A DNA stretch of 64,000 nt from positions 62,001 to 126,000 of the forward strand of contig MU271156.1 in assembly GCA_021432605.1 (NCBI GenBank), written 5' to 3'. Shown in pieces: positions 42,391 to 49,033 of this stretch; the stretch's first letter is position 1; every line of letters begins with the position of its first letter. Origin of the DNA: Coniochaeta sp. PMI_546. Its lineage: Eukaryota; Ascomycota; Sordariomycetes; Coniochaetales; Coniochaetaceae. The position numbers and the translations under genes were made by a program. The notes under the pieces were generated by a model. It worked only from the letters and a program-made list of their open reading frames with translations, was not told the origin of the DNA and made no database searches.

Positions 42391-43317
42391 CTACGCTGCG
42401 GTGGCCGCAAAGATCTCCGCCCGCTTTGCATTCGTCATCAGGCCTACGCTCAAAGCAAAGGCCGCGGTGAAGACAGCAACCATTCCGAGTTTCGCGGCAT
42501 CAGAGGTGACCCAGTAGAGGCCAACTATGGAGCCAACCAGCAGGATGGCCGCCACGAAGATGCTGATGGCAGCGACTGTGATTGCCACGGAATCCTCACT
42601 GAACCGTCCTATCCGGTGGAGGCCGTCGCGAGAAAGCTCTTCCTGTCAGTATGTTAGCTCAGACAGCGTATCCTGCGGACAGGGTAGTGGGCTAACCCGT
42701 GTTGGCCAGTGACGTCTCAGGAAGAGCGACAGATAGTCTGTTTCCGTTGTGTTGAGTCCGACGAGATCCTCTGGGGTGTCCAGAAACGTCTTGGCCAGTC
42801 CGCCAAGCGCAGGGAATGGTTTCTTGAACCATAGCCTGTATGCATCGAGCACACGTTTATTAGGGCGCTTCAGCCTTGATATCTCACTCTGTAATAGAAG
42901 TGCTTCGTCTAATGGTGAGTCAGTCTACGGGCACAATAGTTTGTGGGACGACATTCACGGACGATACTCTCTCAACTTTGCGCGTATCTTCTCGATTAGC
43001 TCCTTTCTGACCTTTGCATCTTCCAACCCGACTGCATATCTTTCTGTCAGGATCTCCCACGTCCTCGCAGCATCTTTCAGGTCCATGTCATCAGTATTTG
43101 CGTCATCTTCATCCAGCTCATTTAGTTGCTTTTCGAGGACGAGGAGCTCGGCCTGCAGGTAGAGAAGATTCCGCGCCGCAAGCTCATGGAATTTGCGGTA
43201 AATGGAGGTCTCGCTGTCAGCATCCAGTGCGATCCATCTTGCAACATCAGCGAATCCTTCTTTTCGCTGTTTCAGAGCGGTTGAACCACTGTCGCCCGAG
43301 TTTATGCCCTCATTCAT
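42391..43317 (-). CDS. DUF6594-type fungal membrane protein
   Basis: Exons 43317-42963, 42908-42697 and 42642-42391 encode 272 residues. The N-terminal part is helical and charged (ETSIYRKFHELAARNLLYLQ, then AELLVLEKQLNELDEDDANT), the middle has LLLQSEISRLKRPNKRVLDA and LVGLNTTETDYLSLFL, and the C-terminus has two or three membrane helices (ITVAAISIFVAAILLVGSIVG and LGMVAVFTAAFALSVGLM). This layout of a coiled helical domain followed by hydrophobic helices fits the fungal DUF6594 family as I know it, whose function is not established. The first intron uses a GTCCGT donor, chosen because it gives EYHEALLLQ in frame; it is the weakest join. The family is often multicopy and accessory in filamentous fungi. 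Confidence 0.7.
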
Positions 43318-43994: not shown

Positions 43995-45662
43995 ATGAAT
44001 CCATCAGCAGGTCCTGGCTCATCCGAGCCCAACGCAGCAGAGCGCGACCAGTCCATGAACAAGACAGACGACCCGACTAAGGACAAATTCATGGCCGTTG
44101 GCATAGACTTTGGTACGACATACTCTGGCATCTTCTGGACGGATATTCAGCCCCCATCTCCAATTTGGGCACCGTGGACCGGGCCTAAGTGGGCTGATAG
44201 GCAGCCCACAGCCGGAAGCAGCGGATTATATGGCAGTAAGTTTTGGGGCAATCTCGCCTTGGAGGAGAGAAAGCTTCTAGAAGTCTTTAGCGTGCTCGGG
44301 GAAGGTAGTGCGCCTCCGACCGCTGTAGAGAATTCATCAACGGCCCTGCAGATGTGGTCGAGGTTCTCAAGGCGGACCTCCGACTTCTCCTCAGGACGCA
44401 AACAGTATTTCATCCAAGGGCAGCTGGGTCGGACTCATTTGGAAGCGTTCCCAGATAGCGGTGCCGACATGTGCTTCATCTCGCCGAGCATGGCGTCCAG
44501 GCTCGGCCTCAATGTCACTCCAGGTACTGGAAGGACAATACACCTCGCCAACAAGAAACTGGCCACATCGCCTGGGATGGTTCGGGTGCCGTGGACCTTT
44601 TCCGGAGAATCGACCGCGCAGATGCTGGAGTGTTGGGTCCTTCCTGGAAGCGTACACAGTCTCGTCCTGGGGAACAAGTTCCTGAGAGCGACGCAGACGC
44701 TGACCAAATTTGCTTCCCGCATCAAGTCCAGAATCGTCGGTCTGCCGAAGCGACTGCGCTTGAGGCTGCTGGGCGAGGAGAAGCAGCGCCTGTGGGGATA
44801 CCTCGACGGCCATCTCACGCCAGCGCTCCCGGATACGGGGTCGGACGTGATGCTCATCTCTCGAGAGTATGCCGAGAGGATCGGGCTGACTATTGACGGT
44901 TGTTGCGAGAACTGGCTCGAGGTCGAGTTTGCCGACGGCAGTACTACATGGACGAGTGGTGTCGTACGAGACGTACCTTGGAGCGTCGGGGGGAAGACGG
45001 TTCGCTGCAACTTCCATGTCCTGGATGACTTGTGCGTGGATGTGGTGTTGAGCAACGACTATCTGTTCGAAACACGCGTGTTCACCGAGCATAGCAACTG
45101 CTTCTTCGACACAGACTCGGAGCAGGACCTGTTCCAACTCTGCAACATCCGGCTCATTGGCCGGTTCTGCGACACGCTCAGCGGACTGGAAGACGAATAC
45201 TTGGAAGATGGTAAGAAAAAGAGACACTCGGCTCTCGGCGTTCTTGGCTAACGTTGCAACAAAACAGTGGTGTCGTTGAATGCTTTCGGTCCTGAGATGG
45301 TTCAAAGGGAGCTGTCTAGACGAGATCGGATCCGAGACGAGATTCTTGCTCTGCCGGCAACTCAACGGGAAGCAGCCAGCCAAGCAGAGGCAGAGAGACA
45401 ACGACGATGGCAGGCTCTGAGGGACGCACATAGGCAGAGATGGGAAGCTGAGGCCTCCTTGGCATCGTCCTCGCTGAATCAAGAGCCGGCCCATAGGACA
45501 GCGACAGATGTGGGTAGCCCTCAGAGTCCGGATCGTCCTCCCGTCAGGGAGGCGGCTGGGAATGATCCGCAACAGCGGCCAGCTCGAAGGACATGGTGGA
45601 AAAAGAGGGTTAGAGTCTCTATTCCGCTGCGGCATCTGACAAGAAGCGAGAGGGTTCCATGA
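43995..45662 (+). CDS. Hsp70-like fragment joined to two retropepsin-like domains
   Basis: Two exons, 43995-45210 and 45268-45662 (57-bp intron, GTAAGA...AACAG), encode 536 residues. Residues 34-50 read AVGIDFGTTYSGIFW, the first phosphate-binding loop of Hsp70/actin-fold ATPases, but the rest of that fold is absent. Two similar domains follow. The first has EAFPDSGADMCFIS (Asp154) and later HSLVLGNKFL; the second has PALPDTGSDVMLIS (Asp280) and later DVVLSNDYLF. Each pairs a D-S/T-G-A/S-D active-site loop with a hydrophobic ILG-like segment about 80 residues on, the layout of retropepsin-like aspartic proteases. Two such lobes in one chain mimic the pepsin arrangement. The last 120 residues are charged and helical (RELSRRDRIRDEILALPATQ), ending in basic WWKKRVRVSIPLRHLTRSER. 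There is no signal peptide. I read it as an intact host gene with uncertain function and substrate. Confidence 0.7.
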
Positions 45663-46603: not shown

Positions 46604-49033
46604 ATGTCACCTCTCCGTCTCCAGATCGAAGACGGCAAGTTTCGAGACGGCCATGGGCGGCAGGTACTTCTAAGGGGTATCAACGTTGCCGGCGACGCAA
46701 AGTACCCAAGCCAGCCCTGGCAACCGTCGCACATCGTTTTCGACTTCTTCGACGGCGACAATGTCAACTTCCGCGAGCGACCATTTACCAAGGAGGATGC
46801 TCCTCTGCACTTCTCGCGCTTAAAGCGCTACGGTTACAACACCATCCGCTACGTCTTCACCTGGGAGGCCATTGAGGCGGCTGGTCCGGGCATCTACGAC
46901 GAGCAATGGATACAGCATACTATTGAAGTGCTCAGGGTGGCCAGGGACTATGGCTTCTACATATTCATGGATCCGCACCAAGATGTCGTAAGTCGTCGAC
47001 CCTTAATCGCTTCAATTCAAATGCGTCGGGTCCAGAAGCTGATCGCGCTGTGCCTCACAGTGGTCTCGATTCACCGGCGGCTCAGGGGCTCCAATGTGGA
47101 CTCTGTACGCAGCCGGCCTCAACCCCCAGAGCTTCGCCGCCACCGAAGCAGCCATCGTGCACAATACCTACCCCGATCCGGCCCAGTTTCCAAAGATGAT
47201 CTGGTCGACCAACTACTACCGACTCGCGGCCGCCACCATGTTCACCCTCTTCTTTGGCGGCAAGGACTTCGCGCCAAAGTGCATCATCGACGGCGTCAAC
47301 ATACAAGACTACCTACAGTCGCACTTCTTCAAGGCCTGCGGGCATCTCGCTCAACGGATACACGAAGCCGGGGATATCGAGAATGATATCGTGTTTGGCT
47401 GGGAGACGCTCAACGAGCCAAATAGAGGTATAATCGGAAACGAGGATATAAGTGTGATCCCCAAAGAACAGGCTCTCAAGAAGGGAACATGTCCGACCAT
47501 ATGGCAGACGATCCTTACAGGCTCCGGAAGGGCATGTGAGGTCGACACCTGGGATATGGGCGGCCTAGGCCCGTACAAAGTCGGTAGGTCTCTCATCGAT
47601 CCGCACGGCGAGGTCGCGTGGCTGCCAGAGGGCTACGACGACTCACGCTACGGGTGGAAGAGAGATCCGGAATGGAAGCTGGGGGAGTGTCTGTGGGCGC
47701 AACACGGCGTGTGGGATCCTGCAACGGACACACTACTCAAAAAGGACTACTTTGGCATACACCCTAAGACCGGAGAGAAGGTCGATTACACGTACTATGC
47801 GCAAAACCATTTCTTGGACTTCTACCGGAAATACCGGGACACCATCCGGACGCATCACAAGGAGGCGATCATATTGCTCCAGGGACCAACAATGGAGATA
47901 CCGCCCAGGATCAAGGGGACGCCAGACGACGAGAACAACATCGTCTACGCACCACATTGGTACGACGGCATAACGCTCATGACCAAGAAGTGGAACCGGA
48001 CATGGAACGTCGACGTCATCGGCATCCTGCGTGGGCGGTACTGGACGCCCGCCTTGGGGATCAAGCTCGGCGAAACAGCCATCAGGAATTGCTTCAGGGA
48101 CCAGCACGCGGCCATGCGGCAGGAGGGCATCGACAACCTGGGCAATCACCCCTGTATAATGACCGAGTTTGGCATCCCGTACGACATGGACGACAAGCAC
48201 GCCTACAAGACGGGCGACTACACCAGCCAGTCGTCCGCCATGGACGCGAACCACTTTGCCGTGGAAGCCTCTGGGTTGGAAGGGTATACACTGTGGTTAT
48301 ACATGACACAGGTACGCTTTCTCTTTCCGCTACTCCCCCCCCCCGTTCTCTCACTAATATCCTACCGCAGAATGACCACGAAAGAGGCGACCAATGGAAC
48401 GGAGAAGACCTATCCATCTTTTCAGTAGACGACAAGCCGCTCCCCGTATCCCCTCTTCCCAGGAGTCCGGACCCAATGGCGTCGACCAACGACCTCCTGT
48501 CCGTAGACTCCGCCTCCCCCACCCCATCCTCAATCCGCAAAGATGTGGACTCCGAGACGGGCGTGACGCCCGCCAACCTGCGCAGGACGATGACCAACGC
48601 CTCCATATCCTCCGTCCCTCAGCCGTCCAGCACAACGGGGTACCGCGCAGCGGAAGCCTTCGTCCGGCCTGCGCCCATCGCCGTGGCCGGAACGATAACG
48701 GGCTACTACTTCGATCTGAAGAGGTGCGAGTTCAACCTCTCCCTCCTGGCAGAGTCAGAGGCGGGCAAGGACGCGCCGACGACGCTGTTCCTGCCGGATT
48801 ACCACTTCCCCAAGGACGGGTGTACGGTGGAGGTCAGCAGCGGGAAGTGGGAGATCTCGAGCGACGAGGACGAGGGGCCGCTGGTGCAGCGGCTCAGGTG
48901 GTGGCATGGCGATGGGGAGCAGAGGATCCGGGTTACGGGGTTGGTGAGGAAGTACAATTCTAGTGAGGACGAGGAGGAGGGGGGTTACTATGAGGCGCTT
49001 GGGAGGGGTATTGGGTCTTGTAGTGTTATGTGA
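46604..49033 (+). CDS. Sterylglucosidase / glucocerebrosidase-like GH5 (subfamily 12 type)
   Basis: Retaining beta-glucosidase resembling Cryptococcus EGCrP2/Sgl1, which removes glucose from ergosteryl glucoside in the cell. Exons 46604-46987, 47061-48311 and 48371-49033, all phase 0, give 765 residues starting MSPLRLQIEDGKFRD. The barrel opens GRQVLLRGINVAGDAKYPSQ and NTIRYVFTWEAIE. The acid/base Glu is 247 in FGWETLNEPN and the nucleophile is Glu497 in CIMTEFGIPYD. LEGYTLWLYMTQ-NDHERGDQWNGEDLS near the end of the barrel is formed across the second intron. A Ser/Pro-rich linker (about 560-640) leads to a beta-rich C-terminal domain (AGTITGYYFDLKRCEFNL, TTLFLPDYHFPKDG), as in the subfamily. 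No signal peptide, so intracellular action is likely. Both catalytic residues are present. Confidence 0.88.

Follow-up and report, generated by a model that had tools for sequence, protein, structure and literature searches.

A fungal gene with an Hsp70-type phosphate loop and two retropepsin lobes on one chain

A gene on contig C14 of Coniochaeta sp. PMI_546 encodes two retropepsin domains, each with its active-site motif, behind an Hsp70-type loop, and it lies in a host context. The window in which it was found is the whole stretch of DNA that was analysed, 64,000 nucleotides in length and spanning C14:62001-126000. Gene content and introns, along with several divergent genes of Hsp70-like type, suggest a filamentous fungus. 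The gene is read, with moderate confidence, as a host chimera in which an Hsp70-like head precedes a single-chain, probably cytosolic retropepsin; from the sequence we infer the pairing of the lobes, the proteolysis, the location and the fusion. The unusual parts of the gene are its Hsp70-like head and the apparently independent doubling of its lobe, the lobe design itself being already known.

Gene model and reading frame

The forward-strand frame that starts at the ATG at 43995 runs for 418 codons without a stop, and splicing of a 57-bp intron would give a predicted product of 536 residues from two exons, ending with the stop at 45662 (Table 1). Among the eight frame-keeping intron candidates listed, this is the sole one that combines a GTAAG donor with a CAG end. 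No Pfam domain was found in the tail encoded by exon 2 (residues 406-536). Codon statistics prefer the stated frame for the whole gene and for six of its seven segments, the exception being the linker of residues 101-133, which has its best codon score on a minus frame. The codon adaptation of the gene (0.609) falls just below that of the eight frames of the window used for training (0.615-0.837), which score highly by construction, and such a value may be that of a weakly expressed or young gene. The minus strand also holds an open frame of 414 codons (44391-45635), which is probably a by-product of codon use since it has no Pfam match. The gene is a real, somewhat odd host gene.

Table 1. 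Positions of the features of the gene within the window
Feature	Position	Strand	Remarks
Exon 1, residues 1-405	43995..45210	+	ATG-started open frame; donor GTAAGA at 45211
Hsp70-type phosphate-1 loop FMAVGIDFGTTYSGI, residues 32-46	44088..44132	+	
Weaker Hsp70-like stretch, residues 47-100	44133..44294	+	W-T-G ... PT ... WG spacing; suggestive
Retropepsin lobe 1, residues 145-229	44427..44681	+	PF13650; AlphaFold2 block pLDDT 82-94
Lobe 1 Asp154	44454-44456	+	
Lobe 1 LG-motif Gly226	44670-44672	+	
Retropepsin lobe 2, residues 270-355	44802..45059	+	PF13650 and PF13975 over cut-off; AlphaFold2 pLDDT 40-77
Lobe 2 Asp280	44832-44834	+	
Lobe 2 Ser353, replacing the motif Gly	45051-45053	+	
Predicted 57-bp intron	45211..45267	+	GTAAGA donor, TAAC branch-like site, ACAG acceptor
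Exon 2, residues 406-536 and stop	45268..45662	+	Arg/Gln/Ala-rich tail

The two lobes and their doubling

The active-site loops are DSGAD from residue 154 and DTGSD from residue 280, and the hydrophobic motifs are LVLGN from residue 223 in lobe 1 and VVLSN from residue 350 in lobe 2, so that the hydrophobic-hydrophobic-Gly motif has Gly226 in lobe 1 and Ser353 at the equivalent place in lobe 2. An earlier note on this DNA had described exactly such a pair of loops, 126 residues apart, each followed by an LG or LS motif with serine for glycine in the second lobe, and this description is borne out. PF13650 matches the protein twice (E 9.7e-20 for the whole protein), and each lobe alone exceeds the cut-off of this family (1.9e-12 for lobe 1, 5.4e-7 for lobe 2); PF13975 also matches each lobe. 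The lobes are 29% identical to each other. The active-site aspartate of lobe 1 is present in 45 of 45 aligned relatives, rows that had been picked by this very motif, and that of lobe 2 in all ten aligned relatives that have a letter there.

Single-sequence searches of the PDB returned nothing significant, the best match being DDI1 (E 0.045 and 0.023 for lobe 2 against human DDI1). Within NCBIfam, TIGR02281 alone matched, with an E-value of 9.4e-5 and 22.6 bits, far below the family cut-off of 57.95. The profile of pepsin family A1 is absent from the Pfam list at E up to 10, the HMMER filters used there dropping weak matches. DDI1 has one lobe between ubiquitin-like and UBA-type ends, and neither kind of end has a Pfam match in the protein. 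Viral contigs scanned using the lobes gave no pattern match, and tblastn of plasmids and phages gave nothing at E 1.

An AlphaFold2 prediction from the single sequence had a mean pLDDT of 33 and was not used. Residues 130-372 were instead modelled from an alignment of the query with 45 relatives, 44 of them bacterial rows and the other the added host DDI1, with L064, L089, L097, L124 and L129 left out; the mean pLDDT of this model is 69.4, with lobe 1 above lobe 2 (Table 1). When the model was compared with the PDB by Foldseek, a tethered single-chain HIV-1 protease ranked first (E 2.3e-6), 9iy9, a two-lobe protein of Bacteroides fragilis, ranked fifth, and plasmepsins and DDI1 appeared from ranks 10 and 15, respectively, several of the plasmepsin matches extending over about 310 alignment columns. 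TM-scores by query length lie between 0.27 and 0.52 in the best 50 rows, and hence the orientation of the lobes in the model is uncertain. A profile made from the model alignment, which is dominated by bacterial rows, matches 9iy9 along both lobes (E 2.8e-18). The structure prediction that had been proposed as a check gave matches to retropepsin-type folds, DDI1 and plasmepsins, but with low to medium confidence for lobe 2.

Both Asp-Ser/Thr-Gly loops are intact, and Ser353 would count against the putative activity. Glycine occupies this place in ten of ten bacterial second lobes, although that of L065 is doubtful and those of L093, L111, L115 and L118 were taken from the printed sequence, the script's first match there being another motif. 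The filter that kept 49 rows demanded of the single-lobe rows a hydrophobic stretch before the aspartate and a later hydrophobic-Gly motif, so that in those rows the glycine is present by construction. The model alignment places the C-terminal end of lobe 2 wrongly at just this point, and so the Ser353 column cannot be counted from it. Together with the long branch of lobe 2 in the tree of lobes (1.96, as against 0.58 for lobe 1), the serine is what would be expected of a catalytically dead protein that has retained the two-lobe fold as a module for binding peptides or partners, with a regulatory role. This is possible but doubtful, as a dead enzyme could lose the two aspartates and the Ser/Thr and Gly next to them, all of which have been kept.

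Chains with two lobes are also found in bacteria. Prokaryote contigs were scanned with a GC-rich DTGA...LGL pattern that gave at least 117 stretches, for which 80 loci were listed and all 80 frames examined; 11 of the 80 have two D-S/T-G lobes per chain as judged from the frames (L065, L079, L088, L093, L095, L096, L111, L114, L115, L118 and L124). Pfam confirmed two stretches in all four of the two-lobe proteins tested, and five of five genomes picked for holding two-lobe genes each have at least one open frame with two PF13650 matches, counts that show the design to be easy to find and do not give its frequency. In a first scan of genome contigs, made with alignment A1, there were 68 pattern matches, none of which was confirmed as a relative. 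The D-S/T-G spacing is 123-149 residues in ten bacterial single chains, compared with 126 here. The idea that the tandem design is itself new was rejected, bacterial counterparts being readily found and the structure of one, 9iy9, solved. What the earlier note had pictured as a pepsin-like chain built from two retropepsin lobes is thus supported by the double PF13650 match and by the fold matches, but is a design that already exists in bacteria. Whilst the bacterial two-lobe proteins, including 9iy9, likewise carry two D-S/T-G lobes per chain and match in fold and profile, several of them start with an apparent signal sequence (by eye), and the four that were scanned have no Hsp70 match, in contrast to the Hsp70-like head found here.

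A tree of the lobes was built from 57 rows and 110 columns, with 13 of its 54 inner branches firm and lobe 2 of the gene among the long branches. L064, L073, L089, L094, L097 and L129 were left out, and L124 counted as one lobe despite the two motifs in its frame; DDI1 is the sole fungal host row beyond the gene's own lobes and L005 the sole element-derived row. Lobes 1 and 2 of the gene are sisters (support 100/98). Of the bacterial second lobes, ten in all, six make up a single firm group (97/92), and the bacterial first lobes are spread over several groups, the gene's lobes grouping together and away from both. As the two lobes are each other's nearest relatives in the tree, the doubling looks separate from the bacterial one. 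The fork that unites them with L058 and L112 is open (86/84). By score, the best match of lobe 1 outside itself is L112, a proteobacterial single-lobe retropepsin (38.7 bits), followed by lobe 2 (24.9 bits), and the best of lobe 2 is lobe 1 (25.1 bits), followed by the host DDI1 (14.0 bits). Single-lobe bacterial retropepsins of the TIGR02281 type are hence the best-scoring relatives of lobe 1 in the set (L112 and then, after lobe 2, L058), but they have one lobe only where the gene has two. The simplest reading of tree and scores would be that the gene's lineage made its own duplication, starting from a lobe either of bacterial type or from an unsampled fungal source.

The Hsp70-like head

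The head reads AVGIDFGT from residue 34, and DFGTT at residues 38-42 matches D-x-G-T-T, the phosphate-1 motif of Hsp70, which also has phosphate-2 and adenosine motifs. Neither of these two was seen when the whole protein was read, and no Hsp70 profile matched it either, PF00012 being absent even with E-values up to 10 allowed. In the genome PF00012 has 21 matches, none of them near C14:106 kb, and residues 1-102 found nothing in the PDB at E 10. An Hsp70 loop near residue 35 without the remainder of the ATPase, as claimed earlier, is therefore what the protein contains.

When the genome itself was searched with residues 1-129, the starts of the Hsp70-like genes L031 (E 0.012) and L032 (E 0.049) were found, and in the reverse direction the first exon of L031 finds the gene at E 0.015, after two other Hsp70-like genes. 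The genome, of 33.5 Mb and 24 contigs, has four sites that fit a degenerate DNA pattern for DFGTT-[YF]-S-[GA] and none that fits the reversed control, on which basis a chance origin of the loop was rejected. The other three sites belong to divergent Hsp70-like genes (L032/L049, L031 and L048). The loop is thus nearest to the divergent Hsp70-like proteins encoded by the fungus itself, and is identical at 12 of 14 positions between this gene, FMAVGIDFGTTYSG, and the Hsp70-like gene L046, FMVIGIDFGTTYSG.

Past the loop, an extension of the homology to about residue 100 is suggestive. With residues 48-104 shuffled, 74 of 2000 sequences score as well when the loop is attached and 1293 of 2000 without it. 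The order W[PT]G..PT..WG, picked after the alignment had been seen, arises in a fraction of 0.0003 of 100,000 shuffles and a looser form in 0.024. Three of four relatives conform to either version. The loop had been described as isolated; no further Hsp70 domain was found, but this weak similarity may carry the resemblance as far as residue 100.

The genome has five divergent Hsp70-like genes (L031, L046, L047, L048 and L049). By eye, L046, L047 and L048 have an intron within or just after the phosphate-1 loop, at three different positions, those of L046 and L047 falling inside the DFGTT-[YF]-S-[GA] motif, and L031 and L049 have none there. Their proteins have the phosphate-1 loop in common with the gene, and possibly the W..PT..WG that follows, but run on into Hsp70-type sequence, whereas the gene runs into retropepsin lobes. 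The first exon of L031 seems by eye to end after EWFKL, about where the similarity of the gene fades. Exon shuffling is not relied on, since an intron is lacking at that point in the gene, and L046, L047, L048 and L049 read through it. Of the two origins that the earlier note had left side by side, a fusion is the better fit, since the protein has a retropepsin body and a further Hsp70 domain did not come to light.

It is unlikely that the model joins two separate genes, the Hsp70-like piece being a relic 5' exon or a small transcript of its own and the protease starting from a later Met. A single frame of 418 codons spans both parts and the loop DFGTTYSG is complete without splicing, against which can be set the shortness of the Hsp70-like piece, an in-frame candidate intron at the loop (44113-44211), the introns at or right after the loop in three of the five related genes, and the poor codon score of the linker.

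Host context and proposed function

The genome contains at least 124 reverse transcriptase matches, and 123 of the 124 listed have stops. These stops are mostly TAG or TAA, as repeat-induced point mutation (RIP) would leave, and the stop-free exception among the listed matches is C8:731217-731492, in a frame of 603 codons. On contig C14, where the gene sits at 106 kb, the listed matches are found at 4 kb and 636 kb, the nearest being about 100 kb away from it. None of the eight frames scanned between 34080 and 49033 has an element domain, and the gene shows no RIP signature, its indices (0.51 and 1.25) falling where the usual thresholds place unmutated DNA. One neighbour, divergently oriented, has a frame at 42955-43317 on the minus strand that matches the first third of the domain of unknown function DUF6594 (PF20237, E 3.3e-19). 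Another, at 46604-49033 on the plus strand, is a glycoside hydrolase family 5 gene with a GH5 C-terminal domain and apparently several exons. The host DDI1 (C1:1627596-1627859) is a gene separate from the two-lobe one. The idea that the gene belongs to a retroelement still in place was rejected, there being no listed reverse transcriptase match nearby and no element domain in the eight frames scanned, and its earlier description as intact and host-owned agrees with this and with its lack of a RIP signature.

At E up to 1 the genome has seven PF13650 matches. Four of them (L005-L008) are outside the gene and DDI1; each has a reverse transcriptase match from the list some 0.5-0.6 kb off, and three of the four carry TAG/TAA stops. 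Through these matches the lobes might be traced to a domesticated protease of a Gypsy-type element of this genome. Such an origin is improbable, given the distance of the gene from any listed reverse transcriptase match, its lack of a RIP signature and the best score of lobe 1 against a proteobacterial protein; the element row L005 also falls apart from the gene's lobes, albeit on a long branch and across forks of weak support.

In the favoured reading, that of a host chimera, the two lobes of one chain would replace the two subunits of a retropepsin dimer, with Asp154 and Asp280, one from each lobe, together forming the catalytic pair and no dimer being needed. The protein is probably cytosolic, as its N-terminus, judged by eye, lacks a hydrophobic stretch. 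The first hundred residues would derive from an N-terminal piece of a divergent fungal Hsp70-like protein, keeping the phosphate-1 loop but too little sequence for an ATPase, which the head alone cannot be because it lacks the remainder of the nucleotide-binding domain. It is probably a start region and linker or a partner contact rather than an ATP-driven motor, the roles that we infer to remain for it being partner contact or merely the supply of a promoter and start. Counting against this explanation are Ser353, the weak model of lobe 2 and its misplaced alignment, the low TM-scores, the Hsp70 similarity past the loop, which is insignificant alone, and the minus-frame codon score of the linker. 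A more elaborate account, offered only tentatively and rather unlikely, is that, in a younger and independent repeat of the pepsin step, a retropepsin lobe was doubled within one gene of a fungal lineage and came to follow a first exon of Hsp70-like origin; the product would be a cytosolic single-chain protease whose head docks to the Hsp70 system or its clients.

According to PMC12239564, pepsins are single chains of two lobes, each of which gives one aspartate. They are usually taken to be a duplication of a dimeric form that resembles retroviral proteases, and the DDI1 retropepsin is a dimer (both from PMC2642776). The gene resembles the A1 pepsins in having two lobes per chain and in the plasmepsin matches of its model, but it lacks an A1 Pfam match and its lobes are still 29% identical. 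DDI1 is likewise a fungal host gene with a retropepsin domain, and lobe 2 finds its human form, though only at the weak E-values given above, but it has one lobe and acts as a dimer as opposed to the two lobes on one chain here. In the part of the literature that was accessible, mostly outside subscription journals, no description of a retropepsin and Hsp70-like architecture in fungi was found. A eukaryotic single-chain retropepsin with lobes that share 29% identity would be a second example of the pepsin duplication step, and a testable one, as the lobes could be separated and each asked whether it still dimerises. The Hsp70-like head raises a question of its own, namely whether a piece of a chaperone's ATPase can be retained for docking.
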